Assembly (NCBI GenBank): GCA_945881865.1
Contig: CAMCVK010000003.1
Coordinates: 124,001 to 188,000 of the forward strand
DNA length: 64,000 bases
From: Fimbriimonas ginsengisoli Gsoil 348
GTDB taxonomy: Bacteria; Armatimonadota; Fimbriimonadia; Fimbriimonadales; Fimbriimonadaceae
Direction of reading: 5' to 3'
Of the stretch, positions 31,069-39,410 are shown in pieces. Position numbers and translations under genes: made by a program. Positions within the stretch are counted from its first letter, which is position 1, and each line of letters opens with the position of its first letter. Under the pieces are notes generated by a model. It ran no database searches. It was given only the letters and a program-made list of their open reading frames with translations, and had not been told where the DNA came from.

Positions 31069-31959
31069 ATGACTCCCCTCGACCCCGGATTTGCCCGAAC
31101 GCAACGTAATCAAAAGGCGGCGATGGTAGCCCTTGGCATCGTCGCGCTGATCCTAGCCGCGTTATTGGGTCTTTCGGCATCTGGAATCCTTCGGTTTGGT
31201 GCGCAGACACCTCCGACCGGGCAGCTCGCGGCCAAAGGGATGGCCCCGAATAACAACATCTTGCAGGACAGCGGCGCGGCTCCCGCACCGGTGCTTGAAA
31301 AAACCGCCGAGGGTCCCCCCGCGATGCCGGCCGACGTCGAGGCATGGCTGAAGCATCTCGAAAAGTGCGAGAAGGCCAAGGTCGAAATTAGCGGAGACCA
31401 GTCTGCCGAGATCACCGTCTTCATGCAAAAGAACTCCGTGCTGGGTGCCGGAATGGGCCTGATGAACCCGTACGATCAGTCCGACGATGGCACCGGTGAC
31501 CAAGACCCCGGCACGTATACCAAGGGCAAGATTCTCGACCTTCGACCGCGCTGGCAAGAGCTGATCACCTACTTCAACTCGGTCCCGCCGCCGGAAGAAT
31601 GCAAGCCGCTGGCCGACGATTTTAACCAAGCAATCAGTGAGATTCCGGGCGTAATGGGCGACCTAGGCGAGGTGCTGAACGAAGTCAGCACGAACCCCGA
31701 GAAGGCACTGCAAACCGTCAACAAGATGAAGAACGGCAGTTACGACGGGATCGACCGGTACTTCGCCCGCGCCGACCAAAAGCTGGGAGCGATCTGCGCA
31801 AAGTACGCCCGTAACAAGTGGTTCAACATTCAAACCGACGTCGGGGCCGGCGGTATGTTTAGCAAGGGCATGCTTGGCGGAATCGGAGGCGCGGGAGCCA
31901 TCGAAGTTCCTCCGCAGCTTGGCGGCGGCCAAAGCACCGCCGGGGCAATCGGCCAGTAG
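31069..31959 (+). CDS. unknown membrane-anchored protein
   Basis: The 296-residue protein has a short cytoplasmic N-terminus, one membrane segment (MVALGIVALILAALLGLSASGIL) and an external soluble domain with two pairs of spaced Cys (EKCEKAK, PPEECKP, GAICAKY) and a Gly-rich C-terminal tail (GGMFSKGMLGGIGGAG). No family recognised. It is the first gene of a compact plus-strand run that includes SprT-like, Nnr, two FHA and one VWA protein; only 2 bases separate it from the next start. Confidence 0.6.
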   Translation: MTPLDPGFARTQRNQKAAMVALGIVALILAALLGLSASGILRFGAQTPPTGQLAAKGMAPNNNILQDSGAAPAPVLEKTAEGPPAMPADVEAWLKHLEKCEKAKVEISGDQSAEITVFMQKNSVLGAGMGLMNPYDQSDDGTGDQDPGTYTKGKILDLRPRWQELITYFNSVPPPEECKPLADDFNQAISEIPGVMGDLGEVLNEVSTNPEKALQTVNKMKNGSYDGIDRYFARADQKLGAICAKYARNKWFNIQTDVGAGGMFSKGMLGGIGGAGAIEVPPQLGGGQSTAGAIGQ

Positions 31960-31961
31960 CC

Positions 31962-32465
31962 TTGAGTAGGCAAGCCCCCGACCCACGAATCGCCTTCGCC
32001 GAGAGTTTGCTCTCTGACCTCTGCGAGCGGTTCCCGATGAATTACCGGCCGGTCATCCACTGGAAGGGGCTCCGCGTCACGGCCGGCCAGGCCTTCCCAA
32101 CCAAAGGCATTATCGGCCTCAGCTACCGAGTCCTGAAGACCGAAGCCGACGTCCGCACGACGCTGATACACGAGTACGCGCACCTGTTGGCGGTTTTTCG
32201 CGAGGGCCTGGGAGCCGGTAACCACGGGCGAGCCTGGAAGCAAGCGATGCGAGATTTGGGCGAGCCGCCGGAAATCTATCATCGCCTCCCGGTAGAACGG
32301 TCGGAACCAAAGAATCCAAAGTCGTACCGGTGTGCGAAGTGCGGATTCGAGTTCGTCCGCGCGCGGGCACTGCCAAGCCACCGGACTTACCAGCACCGGG
32401 ACTGCGGTGGGGCAATCGAGGCGATTCCACCGCAAAAAGGCGATTCCGCAAAACGCCCGCCATAG
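31962..32465 (+). CDS. SprT-like zinc metalloprotease-fold protein
   Basis: The 167-residue protein has the HExxH zinc motif at H70-E-Y-A-H74 and a third ligand candidate in GNHGRAW, followed by a C-terminal zinc ribbon (YRCAKCGFEF and HRDCGG). This matches SprT/SPRTN-like proteins, some of which act on DNA-protein crosslinks. The TTG start is 2 bases after the previous stop, implying coupling. Target unknown. Confidence 0.8.
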   Translation: MSRQAPDPRIAFAESLLSDLCERFPMNYRPVIHWKGLRVTAGQAFPTKGIIGLSYRVLKTEADVRTTLIHEYAHLLAVFREGLGAGNHGRAWKQAMRDLGEPPEIYHRLPVERSEPKNPKSYRCAKCGFEFVRARALPSHRTYQHRDCGGAIEAIPPQKGDSAKRPP

Positions 32466-32496
32466 ATCACACGTAGACCCGCGATAACGACGACTT

Positions 32497-34035
32497 ATGT
32501 GGATCGCGACATCTGAACACACCCGGGCCATCGACCGACGCACGACGGAAGAATTTGGGATCCCGGCATCGGTACTCATGGAGCGCGCTGGGCTGGCCGT
32601 TTTTGACGTTCTTAAGGAAATGCTCCCCGAGGGCGGCCGAATCACCGTTTTCTCGGGAAAGGGCAACAACGGGGGCGACGCCTTTGTTACCGCCCGGGCC
32701 GCGCTGGATGCAGGGTTTAAAGTCGACTCTCTGGTCGCCGCCGACGAAGCCGACCTCAGCCGCGACTGCGCGCTGCAACTGCGCATCGCCCAAGCCCACG
32801 GCTTGGTACCCATTTTTCGGTCCGACGCCCGTTGGGACCGAAAGATTGAACAATTAGGCGGGCAAGACCTCATCATCGACGGCTTGCTCGGCATCGGCGG
32901 AAAGAGCGCGGTGCGCGGTTCCGTGAAGGAAGCGATCGAGGCGATCAACCGGAGCGGCGTGCCCGTGCTGGCGATCGACGTCCCAAGCGGGATCGATGCC
33001 GACACCGGCGAGGAACTCGGCGAGAGCGTCTGGGCACTGCGGACGGTGACGTTCGGGCTACCCAAACCCTATCTTTTTGAGGGCATTGGCCTAGAGCACG
33101 CCGGGTACTGGACGGTCCACGAAATCGGCATTCCCGCCGTTTTGCTGGCCGGGGCCACCAACGCGATCCTGGTCGACAAGGACTGGGTGGGATGCATGAT
33201 GCCGGAGCGGATGCGAAGCGCCCATAAAGGCGATGCCGGGGCCGTGCTTATCGTCGCCGGAAGCGACGCATATCGGGGTGCGGCGGTGCTGTCCGCTATC
33301 GCGGCAATTCGGTCGGGTGCCGGAACCGTTACCGTCGCCGCGATTCCCTCGGTGTGCGCCGCCGTTGCGGCGCAAGTGCCGGAAGCGATCCTGTTGGTCC
33401 TTCCCGAGCGCGACGGTCACGTTGATCCAGCCGGTGCCGAGCTAGTGCTGGGAGTGAACAAGGTCCACGCGGCGGTGTTTGGCCCGGGCCTCGGCCAAGG
33501 CGACGACGTCCAGGAGTTTCTCGCCCGCATTTGGGCCAATTGGCACCGGCCCTGCGTCGTCGATGCCGATGCTCTGAACGCCGTGAGTTCCGGCGTACGT
33601 CTTCCAGATACAGAATGGATCCTAACGCCACACCCGGGGGAAATGAGTCGGCTTCTGCAGCTCAGCATCGCCGAAATCCAGTCGGATCGCTTTCAGACCG
33701 TGCAGCACGCCGCCGAACGATTTGGCGGAACCGTGTTGCTCAAGGGCGCCTACTCCGTAGCGGCGCACCCGGGTCAGCCAATTCGCGTGAATTCGAACGG
33801 CAACCCGGGCTTGGCGACGGGCGGAACCGGCGACGTTCTTTCCGGCGTTTTGGGCACGTTGCTGGCGCAAGATCTTCCCCCGTTCTGTGCGGCGGCGGTC
33901 GGAGCGTACTGGCACGGGGCGGCGGGAGACCGATGTGCGGAAGAAATTGGCCCAATTGGCTTCTCGGCGGGGGATGTTGCCCGCACGCTACCTCAAGCAC
34001 GGGCCAAAATCATCAAGTGCTGTCACGCGCACTAG
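32497..34035 (+). CDS. nnr: bifunctional NAD(P)H-hydrate epimerase/dehydratase
   Basis: The 512-residue fusion has an N-terminal YjeF_N epimerase domain (about 1-215; GKGNNGGDAFVTARA and IDGLLGIGG) and a C-terminal ADP-dependent dehydratase domain (about 225-505; HKGDAGAVLIVAGSDAYRGA, LTPHPGEMSRLL, and the nucleotide loop NGNPGLATGGTGDVLSG). It repairs hydrated NADH and NADPH in the cytoplasm. Its 3' end overlaps the following FHA gene by 19 bases. Confidence 0.93.
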   Translation: MWIATSEHTRAIDRRTTEEFGIPASVLMERAGLAVFDVLKEMLPEGGRITVFSGKGNNGGDAFVTARAALDAGFKVDSLVAADEADLSRDCALQLRIAQAHGLVPIFRSDARWDRKIEQLGGQDLIIDGLLGIGGKSAVRGSVKEAIEAINRSGVPVLAIDVPSGIDADTGEELGESVWALRTVTFGLPKPYLFEGIGLEHAGYWTVHEIGIPAVLLAGATNAILVDKDWVGCMMPERMRSAHKGDAGAVLIVAGSDAYRGAAVLSAIAAIRSGAGTVTVAAIPSVCAAVAAQVPEAILLVLPERDGHVDPAGAELVLGVNKVHAAVFGPGLGQGDDVQEFLARIWANWHRPCVVDADALNAVSSGVRLPDTEWILTPHPGEMSRLLQLSIAEIQSDRFQTVQHAAERFGGTVLLKGAYSVAAHPGQPIRVNSNGNPGLATGGTGDVLSGVLGTLLAQDLPPFCAAAVGAYWHGAAGDRCAEEIGPIGFSAGDVARTLPQARAKIIKCCHAH

Positions 34036-35240
34036 TTTGGCTCTTCTTTCTGCTATGCCTTGCCCCCCTTGCGCACGCCCAAGCGACGCTTACCTTCCCT
34101 GCGGCCGGCGAGCACTGGGTCTGGACGAGCGCGAAACGCTTTGACGCCGAGCCCACCGGCTACGTCAAAACCGGGGAAACCACCCTGAACTTCCCCGGCA
34201 CCGGCGCTAAAGATACCGACCTGCTTCACGTCTTGGACGCAAAGTCCGGTTTGGTAGCAATTCGACCTTGGGCGGCTGCGCAGAAGAACCCGACATTTGC
34301 CCCAGGGGACTTCTCGGTTCGCTACAAAACGACGGTTCGCGTCGTTTCGGGTGAGAAGGCGGTCGCCGCCGCCAGTTTGAAAATATCGGCGGGTAAAGAA
34401 ACCCGGCAGGCGCTGCTCGATCCTTCACTTGATGGGAACGCGACGTTCTTCGGCCTCCCGCAGGGCAAAGCCTCCGTTGAGGTGCAGGTCAACTCGGCGG
34501 GCAAGCCGACCACGATACGCCAAGAACTGGAACTTACGGCCGATCCCGCCGTCACGTACGCGGTCGCGGTTCCGGGCCCAGTCGAAACGGTGAGCGGCTC
34601 ACCGGCTGCCGCTGCCGCGGCTACCGAAACAAAAACGAACAAAGAAGCCGCACCCGCACCGAATCCGGTCGGCACCGCCCTCGTTTATCTGATCTCGATT
34701 GCCGCGATCGTCGCGATCGGCTATTTCGTGTTGCAATACTACCGAGGCAATAAGTCGGCGGTGGATTCAAAGCTAGAGCAACTTGGCGTCCAGGTGCCAA
34801 AGCCCGGAGACGCCAATATGACCACGGCCCCGGCGCAGCCTGATCCGGGTTACTCGAAGCCCGCCCCGGTTCAGAAAATCGTTTTGGACGGCACCACTCC
34901 CGACCCCATCGTGGTCCCGCCTTCCGCAGCCGCGCCGGCGGTCAGTTCGATGCAGACCGGCGAGCCGCGCCTTGTCAGTGACTCGGGCGACGTGATTCCT
35001 TTGTTCGATGGCGAAACGATTGTCGGCCGCGAGGTTGGCGTCGGGCTCAGCCTGCCCGATGAGACCACCATTTCTCGGCGACACGCCAAGCTTGATCGGC
35101 TTGGCACCGGCGTCACCGTGTCCGACCTCAGCAGCACCAACGGCACCTACGTGAACGGCGTGCGGGTCACGGCCGGCATCACGTTGCGGCCCGGCGACGC
35201 CGTGCAGTTCGGCTCCGTTCGCTTCCGCTTCGAGAGTTAA
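34017..35240 (+). CDS. membrane-anchored FHA-domain protein with secreted N-terminal region
   Basis: The protein of 407 residues starts with a signal peptide (ALVWLFFLLCLAPLAHAQA), has an extracytoplasmic beta-rich region (about 25-190), an Ala/Thr/Pro linker, a membrane segment near 225 (TALVYLISIAAIVAIGYFVL) and a cytoplasmic C-terminal FHA domain with ETIVGREVG, TISRRHAKL and LSSTNGTYVNG. The GTG at 34017 is chosen because it places the signal peptide at the N-terminus. This topology links an outside domain to an inside phosphothreonine reader. Confidence 0.8.
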   Translation: MLSRALVWLFFLLCLAPLAHAQATLTFPAAGEHWVWTSAKRFDAEPTGYVKTGETTLNFPGTGAKDTDLLHVLDAKSGLVAIRPWAAAQKNPTFAPGDFSVRYKTTVRVVSGEKAVAAASLKISAGKETRQALLDPSLDGNATFFGLPQGKASVEVQVNSAGKPTTIRQELELTADPAVTYAVAVPGPVETVSGSPAAAAAATETKTNKEAAPAPNPVGTALVYLISIAAIVAIGYFVLQYYRGNKSAVDSKLEQLGVQVPKPGDANMTTAPAQPDPGYSKPAPVQKIVLDGTTPDPIVVPPSAAAPAVSSMQTGEPRLVSDSGDVIPLFDGETIVGREVGVGLSLPDETTISRRHAKLDRLGTGVTVSDLSSTNGTYVNGVRVTAGITLRPGDAVQFGSVRFRFES

Positions 35241-35242
35241 CT

Positions 35243-36595
35243 ATGGCCGGCGTTAGTTTTCGATTCATCCTGGGGCTGATTGCAGGCGCGCTTGCCTGGG
35301 CGATGTGGGAGCCGGCGTACCCGAAGAATCCTGACGCACGCAGCCCCGTTGAGTTGTACATGGTCCTCACCGCCGGGGCGCTCATTGGCCTTGCGGTCGC
35401 TGGGCTTGGAGGATTTTTGCAGGGCAGCCGGGCGCACGCGATGCGCGCGGGCTTACTGGGGCTTCTGTTTGGCACAATTGGGATTTCGCTCGGCTACACC
35501 CTCGGTGGGAACATCAGCCGCGCACTGTTTGGCTTGATCATATTTCAGGACCCAACGGCAAACATCTTCACGCAGATCCTCGCCCGCACCACGGCCATTG
35601 CGCCGATGGCGATCTTCCTAGGTGCCGCCGTCGGCGCGAGCACGCTCAACGTTAAGCGCACGATTCAAGGCGCGATTGGTGGAGCGATCGCCGGGGTGGC
35701 CGCTGGCCTCACGTTCGACCTTCTTAGTGAGACGCTGAAAAACACCGTTCTTGCGTTGCAGGGCCAGCAGACCGGCGACGTCGGCGGGACCGCCCGCGCC
35801 CTCACCTTTTCCCTCATCGGGGCGCTGATTGGGCTGTTCATTGGCTTGGTTGACCTTTTGGCGAGAAAAGCCTGGGTTCGCCTGAGCCTCGGGCGGAACG
35901 AGGGCCGCGAGTGGTCGCTCGACTGGGCCGACAACTACATCGGTCGCAACGAAAACGCGACGATCCCGCTGTTCGGCGACCCGAATATTGCGCCAGTACA
36001 CGCCGTCATTCACCGGCAAGGAAACCAGTACATCGTGCGCGACGGTGGGAGCCCGATGGGTACGGGATTGAACGGCCAACGGATTCAGGAAGCGGTGCTC
36101 TTCCCTGGGGCGATCATCCAGATTGGCAACTTCTCGCTTGAGTTCATGGAGAAGGGGTCGCCGAGCCGAGCCGTCCAGCCCATGCCAACCCAGATGCCAA
36201 CACAAATGCCGACCCAGATGTACGGTCAGCAACCGATCCAACAACAGAGCCAGATGCCGAACTTGAACAAGACCGTGGCCTACGGTCAGCAAAACCCGCT
36301 GGTGACGGCCCCGGCGGTCTTGTCGCTGGTCGTGCTAGACGGCCCACTGTCCGGCCAACGGTTCCCGCTGATGAGTCCCATCGAGCTCGGACGGGAATCC
36401 GCTCAAGTGCCGATGCAGTACGACAGCCAGGCTTCGCGGCGCCACGCGGTGGTTTCGCCGTACCCCTCCGGCGTCGAGGTTCGCGACAACGGCTCGACGA
36501 ACGGAACTTTTGTGAACGGACAGAGAATTTCGCAGACGATTGCCCGGCCTGGAGACGTCGTAAAGGTCGGAAGCACTTCCTTTAGAATCGAATAA
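35243..36595 (+). CDS. multi-pass membrane protein with two FHA domains and MPTQ repeats
   Basis: The 450-residue protein has about six N-terminal membrane segments (1-210), then a first, degenerate FHA domain (about 225-310; YIGRNENATIPL, no RH motif but APVHAVIHR and TGLNGQRI), a spacer with three MPTQ repeats and Gln-rich sequence (about 313-350), and a second canonical FHA domain (about 365-450; ELGRESAQ, QASRRHAVVS, NGSTNGTFVNG). It starts 2 bases after the preceding FHA gene. It could scaffold phosphorylated partners at the membrane (inference). Confidence 0.8.
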   Translation: MAGVSFRFILGLIAGALAWAMWEPAYPKNPDARSPVELYMVLTAGALIGLAVAGLGGFLQGSRAHAMRAGLLGLLFGTIGISLGYTLGGNISRALFGLIIFQDPTANIFTQILARTTAIAPMAIFLGAAVGASTLNVKRTIQGAIGGAIAGVAAGLTFDLLSETLKNTVLALQGQQTGDVGGTARALTFSLIGALIGLFIGLVDLLARKAWVRLSLGRNEGREWSLDWADNYIGRNENATIPLFGDPNIAPVHAVIHRQGNQYIVRDGGSPMGTGLNGQRIQEAVLFPGAIIQIGNFSLEFMEKGSPSRAVQPMPTQMPTQMPTQMYGQQPIQQQSQMPNLNKTVAYGQQNPLVTAPAVLSLVVLDGPLSGQRFPLMSPIELGRESAQVPMQYDSQASRRHAVVSPYPSGVEVRDNGSTNGTFVNGQRISQTIARPGDVVKVGSTSFRIE

Positions 36596-36611
36596 AGTAG
36601 CAATTTACGCC

Positions 36612-37997
36612 ATGGAACCCACACAGCGATTCGACCCGAACCGGACCCAACTTGGGGCACCGCCCCAGGCGGTGGACCCGCAACGCACGCAGGCCATGGC
36701 CGCGTTCGACCCGCTGAAGACAACCGCAATGGCCCCGGCTTTCGAGGGCCTGAAGGTGGAAGTGATCTGTGGCCGCGCCGCGACGATGGCAAACGGTCCC
36801 GCGCGCGAGCAATTCTTGCTGGAGGTCTCGGCAGGTGCCGCGCCGGGTGGTCTCAGTGGCGTGAGCGTTGGCGGCGGAACCCGCACCCCGCTCAACCTCT
36901 GCCTCGTTATTGACCGCAGCGGCTCGATGGAAGGTGCCCCGCTGGAATACGCCAAGCAGGCGTGTAGCCACGTGGTCGACATGCTCGGCCCCAACGACAT
37001 CCTCAGCATCGTCACGTTCGAAGAAGTTGTGGACGTTCTGATGGCGCCGCAACGGGTCACCAGCAAGCAGCCGATCAAGGACGGCATTTCCCGACTTCTG
37101 CCCGGCAACACGACGAACCTGTACGACGGCATCGCCGTTGCCGCGCAACAGATTCAGCAGATTCAGGAAGGCGGCCGCGCGACCCGAATGGTCGTCCTCA
37201 CCGACGGCGACCCGACCGCCGGGATCAAGGACTTCAGCGCGCTGGTGGCGCATGCGGGCGACATCAAAAATCGAGGTATCACCGCGACGTTTCTCGGCTT
37301 CGGCCCGGATTACAACGAGGAGCTCCTGGCCAGCATGGCCAAAAAGGCCGGCGGGAACTACTATTACATCCCGCAGCCGCAAATGATCCCGGACGTGTTT
37401 CGCACCGAGCTCGACAAGCTGATGACCTCGGCCGCACGCGGCCTTTCGATGACCATCAAGCCGTCGCGCTGGGTGACGCTGCGCGGCCCAGAGAACGCCA
37501 ACGAGGGCCAGGAAATCAAGATCTCGCTGACGGACCTTGAACGGGGAAGCTCGCTCCAACAGGTGTTTGATTTCGAATTTCGCAACCACCCGCTCGGCTG
37601 GTATCGCGTCGCCACTGCAAAACTCACGTACGACGACCTAGGCGAAGGCGGAGCCGCGAAAACGGTCGATGTTGATTTCGTGATCGAATTCACCGCCGAT
37701 GCCGCGCGGTACTCGGTTGCGGCCGACCCACGCGTTGCCGGGGCGGCGCAGGTCGCGCAGGCCAGCCGAGCCGTTGAGAAGACGGTGATGGGCCTGAAGA
37801 CCGGTGTCCTCACGCAGATGGGTGCCATCCAGGAGCTACAGAGGACGCAAATGCTGCTGACGACCCAAGGCAGAACCGCCGAGGCGCAGGAGGTCACGAT
37901 GGCTCTGCGCGCCCTTCAATCTGGCGATGCCGGACAAGCCGAAAAGACCCTCATGGGCACCATGGTGCACCTCGACCAGGGCAAGAAGTCAAGCTAA
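36612..37997 (+). CDS. VWA-domain protein with N-terminal DPxxT repeats
   Basis: The 461-residue protein has no signal peptide. Residues 1-40 carry three repeats, FDPNRTQL, VDPQRTQAM and FDPLKTTAM, with Thr12, Thr26 and Thr37. A von Willebrand factor A domain follows (about 92-270) with an intact MIDAS motif D101-x-S-x-S105 (DRSGSMEG) and a later Asp in LTDGDPTAG. The rest is beta-rich, then a helical C-terminus with many Gln and Ala. The repeats look like phosphothreonine sites that the two FHA proteins upstream could bind. A terminator overlaps its stop codon. Confidence 0.85.
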   Translation: MEPTQRFDPNRTQLGAPPQAVDPQRTQAMAAFDPLKTTAMAPAFEGLKVEVICGRAATMANGPAREQFLLEVSAGAAPGGLSGVSVGGGTRTPLNLCLVIDRSGSMEGAPLEYAKQACSHVVDMLGPNDILSIVTFEEVVDVLMAPQRVTSKQPIKDGISRLLPGNTTNLYDGIAVAAQQIQQIQEGGRATRMVVLTDGDPTAGIKDFSALVAHAGDIKNRGITATFLGFGPDYNEELLASMAKKAGGNYYYIPQPQMIPDVFRTELDKLMTSAARGLSMTIKPSRWVTLRGPENANEGQEIKISLTDLERGSSLQQVFDFEFRNHPLGWYRVATAKLTYDDLGEGGAAKTVDVDFVIEFTADAARYSVAADPRVAGAAQVAQASRAVEKTVMGLKTGVLTQMGAIQELQRTQMLLTTQGRTAEAQEVTMALRALQSGDAGQAEKTLMGTMVHLDQGKKSS

Positions 37998-38363: not shown

Positions 38364-39410
38364 ATGGCCGTAACGATTCGCGAGGTGGCCAAAGCGGCCG
38401 GCGTAAGTACCGCCGCGGTATCCAAGGTTCTGCACGGGCGCGGCAATAGCGTTCGCGTCAGTGATGTAAGGGCCGCGCACATCCGCGAGATTGCCGAAAG
38501 CCTGAATTACCGTCCGAACGCCGTTGCGCGTAACCTCCGAATCCGGCGAACCCACGCGGTCGGGATCATTTTTGAGAACTTTGGCTCGTTCGCGAACGGT
38601 CCGCTGTATTACATGCACCTCTTCGAAGGGGTCGGCGGCGTTCTCTTCAAGAACCACTACCGCATGACGATCCTCGCGGAGATTGCGCACGACGACGTCC
38701 TGTCCTCGCTTGGCGACGGCCAGCTGGACGGCGTCGTTTGGTGCAAGCTGACCCGCGATCCAGAAAGCCTTGCGCTGATTCATAGCTGCCCGATCCCGAT
38801 CGTCGCCATGAACGCCCCGGCACCGACCGTTCCCACCGAGGCCGTGTTCGTTTCTTGCGATAACGAAGGTGGCATCGATCTCGCCGTGCAACACCTCGTC
38901 GCCCTGGGCCACCGCCGCATCGCCTTCCTGTACGAGCGGCAGGAGCTTGATACTCCGGACCGCCAGGCCCGGCTTGAAGGCTTTCATGACGCCATGAAGG
39001 CGCGCACCGGAGTCGATGCAACCGCCGAGGACGTGCTCGAGTGGGACTGGCTGTTACCCGAGTTTAGCGGTTGGTGGGCAGCTAAGCCGCCCCACACCGC
39101 AATTATTTGCTGGAGCGAACGCACCGCCGGTAACTTGATTCTGCAAGCCACGAGCGCGGGTCTGTCGTTGCCTGGCGACCTCAGCATTGTTGGGTTCGAC
39201 AGCACGCAGTATTGCGAGACCACCACGCCGCGCCTCACCGCCGTCTGCCAACCCATCTACGAGATGGCCGCCGCCGCCGCCACCACGCTCCTGGCGATGA
39301 TCGACGGGATGCCTCCCATTCAGTCTTCTTTCACCTTCCCGTGCACGTTTGACGTGCGCGATTCAACGACAACGCCTCGGTCCCCTCTCAATGCAGAGAA
39401 TCCATCATGA
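38364..39410 (+). CDS. LacI-family transcriptional regulator (first)
   Basis: The 348-residue protein has a LacI helix-turn-helix (residues 1-26: [20 protein letters not shown]), hinge helix region [11 protein letters not shown] and a periplasmic-binding-protein-like sensor domain with [18 protein letters not shown]. Its ATG immediately follows the lipoprotein stop and its own stop overlaps the pilin-like gene by ATGA, so the regulator sits inside a three-gene operon. No sugar transporter or enzyme is nearby. Effector unknown. Confidence 0.9.

Follow-up and report, generated by a model that had tools for sequence, protein, structure and literature searches.

What do the threonine repeats at the N-terminus of a VWA protein do when the genes of two membrane FHA proteins stand directly in front of it? 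The question is raised by four genes (NnrD, FHA1, FHA2 and VWA) that run head to tail on the + strand of the window, the 64-kb stretch of DNA analysed here (contig C3, 124001-188000), taken from a genome (G000) of 3.23 Mb that is 98% complete. The first-pass annotation had counted three DPxxT motifs in VWA and, in the two membrane proteins together, three FHA domains, and proposed from the equal numbers that phosphorylated repeats recruit VWA to the membrane. Gene set, linkage, co-occurrence, predicted fold, motif conservation, and the integrity or loss of FHA pockets were established by computation. We consider it probable that FHA1 and FHA2 are the membrane half, and VWA the ArnB-like receiver, of a phosphothreonine switch of six proteins in Armatimonadota, controlled by a kinase and a phosphatase.

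The VWA gene (36612..37997, +; Pfam VWA) encodes the motifs FDPNRTQL (residues 7-14), VDPQRTQAM (21-29) and FDPLKTTAM (32-40) within a tail, residues 1-42, that is predicted to be disordered (AlphaFold2, pLDDT mostly <50). Their cores lie on the + strand at 36633..36647 (DPNRT, T12), 36675..36689 (DPQRT, T26) and 36708..36722 (DPLKT, T37). The three genes, the motifs and the unstructured tail were thus as first described; a fourth, degenerate site had been missed, a zeroth repeat (MEPTQRF) with T4 at 36621..36623 (+), where many homologues have MDxTQ. T4 and T12 are each Thr in 21/22 distant homologues, T26 is invariant in 44 aligned proteins, and T37 is invariant in these 44 and in the 22 distant homologues; apart from the repeats, the VWA N-termini of relatives are variable. 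Among 52 distinct VWA tails (51 relatives and the window's own) DP..T occurred 121 times against a shuffled mean of 2.6 (maximum 9), and D...T 140 times against 18.6 expected (maximum 32), with 1 to 4 D...T motifs per tail. The same tails contain 259 Thr and 75 Ser. When 61 genomes were scanned with a DNA pattern that encodes a pair of DPxx[RK-like]T units, 35 of the 73 matches fell in VWA, 37 in FZF (an FHA-zinc ribbon-FHA protein with the same tandem repeats) and 1 elsewhere; the reversed pattern gave 5 matches. Shuffling and the genome-wide specificity of the tandem pattern together rule out a chance origin. As judged from sequence, the Thr repeats of the tail form a phosphosite-like module under strong selection.

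The conserved core of the repeats is wider than the threonine and takes in D, P, N, R/K, Q and M, as in ordinary docking motifs. The repeats could on that account be short linear motifs that act independently of phosphorylation, for example as ligands of a partner protein, and their linkage to FHA genes would then be coincidental operon membership. We regard this as highly improbable: it is Thr that does not vary, other lineages having lost D and P, and the operon holds kinase, phosphatase and FHA genes. Distant VWA relatives in family f18 (e.g. L302) are without DP repeats, yet FZF, the phosphatase (PP2C) and the Ser/Thr kinase (STK) are kept, and the repeats are therefore dispensable to the system.

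Behind the tail, the AlphaFold2 model of VWA (pLDDT 86) consists of a beta-sandwich, into which a VWA domain with MIDAS is inserted, and a C-terminal four-helix bundle. The VWA domain (36894..37397, +; Pfam, residues 95-262) has a complete MIDAS (DxSxS, Thr, Asp), in which D101, S103, S105, T167/T168 and D198 are invariant (n = 44). The top structural match of the model was ArnB in the ArnAB complex (PDB 8s05; Z 32.9, rmsd 3.7, 370/380 residues aligned), at a sequence identity of only 18%. It was followed by a VWA protein of Catenulispora acidiphila with the same three-part fold (PDB 4fx5, Z 32.4) and by vWA2 (Z 30.2), the next row being at 26.7. ArnB_C (IPR040929), a model that the library may not contain, was not among the Pfam matches of the 44 VWA members at E<=1. 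ArnA and ArnB are the archaellum regulatory module of Sulfolobus, together with the kinases ArnC and ArnD and the phosphatase PP2A (PDB 8s05, 5a8j and 5a8i). In that system ArnC phosphorylates the helix bundle of ArnB and the FHA domain of ArnA then binds there (PMC6509490, PMC12852372); the phosphothreonine sites mapped in ArnB are in the C-terminal bundle and not in an N-terminal tail.

The bundle of the window's protein (37728..37979, +; helices 373-456, AlphaFold2) contains T391 (37782-37784), T412 (37845-37847) and T446 (37947-37949), all on the + strand and all invariant in the 44 aligned and 22 distant homologues. For a profile, 540 sequence contexts of tail Thr were combined, leaving out the DP positions; when it was scored on the folded columns where Thr is common, T391, T412 and T446 ranked first to third of 26. 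Between 0.7 and 1.8% of all folded VWA positions match the profile as well as the bundle Thr do, and these matches could reflect helix composition. The parallel with the ArnB phosphosites was drawn post hoc and is suggestive only. Such look-alikes would fit a scheme in which regulatory phosphorylation takes place in the bundle, as it does in ArnB (PMC12852372), and the tail repeats act as decoys for the bundle Thr, competing for kinase or FHA sites and so setting a threshold. The invariance of the three Thr in 66 proteins and their position as the best tail-profile matches among folded Thr speak for it; the likeness is modest and short, the bundle Thr would have to be accessible, and we find the decoy scheme improbable.

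FZF is encoded on the - strand of contig C15 (L091:7587-8492), where it was found as a match to the tandem DPxxT pattern. Its tail runs MSDQNRTQM-LNADPNKTRLGM-APAVDPNKTIMGV..NVTQT; a zinc ribbon comes next, then a pair of FHA domains. FZF tails contain 69 DP..T motifs against 1.7 expected; in family f2 the DPN is lost and T-x-A-M-like sites are kept. The ribbon, CX2CX10CX2C in 55/55 proteins, has a spacing identical to that of ArnA (C21/C24/C35/C38; PMC12852372). ArnA was among the PDB matches of FZF (E 2.7e-13), through the FHA domain only, and since FZF carries two FHA domains instead of the single one of ArnA-type adaptors, it is not classed as ArnA proper. FZF also resembles actinobacterial GarA and OdhI, in that N-terminal Thr sites are joined with FHA domains of the GarA/OdhI sequence group. 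Identification as a switch of that small, single-FHA type was rejected, given the zinc ribbon, the two FHA domains and a score of 57.6 against the 200-bit cut-off of NCBIfam OdhI; the sites of FZF are moreover repeated, and its partner is an ArnB-like VWA and not 2-oxoglutarate dehydrogenase. In five distant relatives (L295, L297, L299, L301 and L304) a single FHA domain is combined with two zinc ribbons in one protein, which in L295 stands directly behind a divergent VWA, nearer the ArnA layout. An FZF homologue at L303:3888-5204 has an N-terminal stretch that resembles a J domain.

The membrane pair is encoded between NnrD and VWA. The start of FHA1 (34017 or 34035..35240, +; one FHA by Pfam) is likely the GTG at 34017, which overlaps NnrD. 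The protein comprises a signal peptide or anchor, an extracytoplasmic beta-rich domain, one TM helix, a cytoplasmic linker and one FHA domain (35016-35213); in the AlphaFold2 model, numbered from 34035, the beta-rich domain spans residues 16-183 (pLDDT mostly >94), the helix 211-238 and the FHA domain 312-401. Foldseek gave FHA matches only among the matches listed for FHA1, and none for the extracytoplasmic region. FHA2 (35243..36595, +; two FHA by Pfam; alignment A4) consists of a glycine-rich hydrophobic region with multiple TM segments (read by eye from the sequence), a degenerate FHA domain, a linker and an intact FHA domain at the C-terminus. NnrD-type NAD(P)HX epimerase/dehydratase (32497..34035, +; Pfam Carb_kinase and YjeF_N) is found at this position ahead of the module in most relatives, and other classes have it there too; it is probably a conserved neighbour with no part in the mechanism. 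A LacI-type regulator follows VWA at 38364-39410 and is also near VWA in relatives L059, L060, L062, L065 and L084. A protein without Pfam match at 31069-31959 stands ahead of an SprT-like gene in many genomes of f1, the window's family, and only there.

Conservation of the phosphothreonine pocket separates the FHA domains of the module. The GR Arg, SxxH Ser and NG(T) Asn are kept in all rows with residues in four domains: that of FHA1 (64 rows), the second of FHA2 (FHA2-B, 36383..36571, +; 66/66 rows) and both domains of FZF (FZF-A and FZF-B). In the first domain of FHA2 (FHA2-A, 35939..36127, +; residue census of 67 rows) the SxxH Ser is present in 4/67 rows and mostly replaced by Ala, and the NGT Asn is lost; its place is taken by I/M/V/A/L or a gap in most rows, Asn being outside the six commonest residues. 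Three membrane FHA domains are therefore a correct count by Pfam, of which only two keep the phosphothreonine-binding residues. The proposed match of three baits to three readers fails on this degenerate domain and on the variation of the tails, which carry 1 to 4 sites while the FHA set is fixed. In deep-branching FHA2 proteins of alignment A4 (L050, L051, L057, L180, L182, L261, L265 and L266) a zinc-ribbon-like CxxCG..CxC segment separates the two FHA domains, a segment that the window's family has lost.

A VWA orthologue was found in 60/61 genomes searched. No curated NCBI family reached its cut-off. Of 121 genomes sampled across the phylum, 70 have a strong VWA (E 1e-80 or better), and 69 of these also have a strong FZF (E 1e-40 or better), as against 2 of the remaining 51 (Fisher p 3e-30, a value that overstates independence because the genomes are related). 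FZF is immediately downstream of VWA on the same strand in 52/55 genomes outside family f1, families f3 and f4 among them. The first-pass annotation had overlooked the most closely linked reader, FZF, in which repeats like those of VWA are joined to two intact FHA domains. The repeats might serve only VWA-FZF pairing or self-regulation of FZF, either by a GarA/OdhI-like intramolecular closure or by FZF FHA domains on the VWA tail, with FHA1 and FHA2 reading other targets and no membrane recruitment of VWA. Support for this comes from the presence of repeats and two intact FHA domains in one protein, from VWA-FZF being the tightest gene pair, and from f2, where the VWA locus is mostly without the FHA pair. 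We nevertheless judge it unlikely, though a more serious contender than docking motifs or decoys, since FHA1 and FHA2 immediately precede VWA across most of the order as well as in other classes, and the FHA1 and FHA2-B pockets are invariant. The f2 genomes examined keep the pair elsewhere, and co-conservation of repeats and FHA pair, which had been suggested as a check, therefore holds throughout the order, where no loss of the repeats beside a retained pair was seen.

The absence of a Ser/Thr kinase, noted at the outset, is true of the window. The genome has five kinases over the Pfam cut-off, all outside the window, and kinases occur in 61/61 relatives. PP2C and STK both follow in 11/15 VWA-FZF loci with enough downstream sequence (3 of the 11 from one genus), and the kinase is not downstream in the other 4; L261 and L265 have the full NnrD-FHA1-FHA2-VWA-FZF-PP2C-STK operon. 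Since the operon of other Armatimonadota holds both enzymes, the "missing" kinase and phosphatase exist. PP2C is a neighbour of FZF in 22/30 f1 loci, and in the window genome kinase, phosphatase and FZF are unlinked. Of its five kinases, the one that comes closest to the operon kinases (39-58% identity) is on contig C11 (L104; L309:6638-8425), and a PP2C orthologue (64%) lies at C3:230896-231636; sequence similarity thus makes it likely that orthologues of the operon kinase and phosphatase are encoded elsewhere in this genome. The same genome has two further FHA/PP2C/Ser-Thr kinase operons, at C1:215812-217737 (about 215.8-218.8k; L093) and C3:7853-10721 (about 7-11.5k; L092). Their kinases were rejected as the module kinase, not being the best match to the operon kinases. 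Apart from the module, C11:50464-51084 (L108) encodes a divergent protein that resembles a kinase but scores under the Pfam cut-off; its C-terminal part resembles the helix-hairpin-helix kinases found with TerY-type genes. Anti-phage defence was also rejected: the kinase matches models named for defence-system kinases, which the kinase domain alone could explain, and PADLOC has no family for the VWA or FHA proteins.

We hypothesize that Thr residues in the VWA and FZF tail repeats are substrates of the kinase, as probably are the look-alike Thr of the VWA helix bundle. The phosphothreonines would be bound by the four intact FHA domains, of which FZF has two and FHA1 and FHA2 one each. A multivalent complex would thereby link VWA with FZF and both of them with the membrane proteins, and PP2C would reverse this. 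The unlinked kinase, phosphatase and FZF genes of the window genome, the four loci with no kinase downstream, the f18 relatives and the position of the mapped ArnB phosphosites weigh against the scheme. VWA may be recruited to the membrane, plausibly by a tether through FHA1 and FHA2, and the extracytoplasmic domain of FHA1 may bring in an outside signal. Phosphorylation, FHA binding, output and any sensing are what we infer from the computed features.

With ArnA/ArnB the module shares a VWA fold over the full length, a complete MIDAS, invariant C-terminal bundle Thr, a zinc ribbon joined to FHA, adjacent VWA and FZF genes (outside the window's own family), and kinase and phosphatase partners. 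It differs in being bacterial, in having Thr repeats in the VWA N-terminal tail and in the adaptor, in the two FHA domains of that adaptor, in the two added membrane FHA proteins and in PP2C instead of PP2A; ArnA/ArnB control the archaellum, whereas no gene of the Armatimonadota operon points to motility. Our tentative reading, which we hold with some reserve, is of a widespread Armatimonadota counterpart of ArnA/ArnB whose operon also includes the kinase and the phosphatase. Bundle-like phosphosites would have been multiplied into repeats on receiver and adaptor, and membrane FHA proteins added, to give a multivalent, phosphorylation-driven membrane assembly.

The ArnA/ArnB papers found concern Sulfolobales, and literature searches found nothing joining forkhead-associated with Fimbriimonas or on an FHA/PP2C/VWA cluster of Armatimonadetes. 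To our knowledge, there are few bacterial FHA-phosphothreonine systems in which kinase, phosphatase, substrate and readers are all named. Here a single operon gives the whole set, with candidate substrate sites by name, and the switch could therefore be reconstituted in vitro with six proteins. The system would allow repeated Thr motifs to be tested as multivalent handles, and it provides a testable hypothesis for genes outside every curated family. If the reading is true, the ArnAB architecture would be no archaeal peculiarity.
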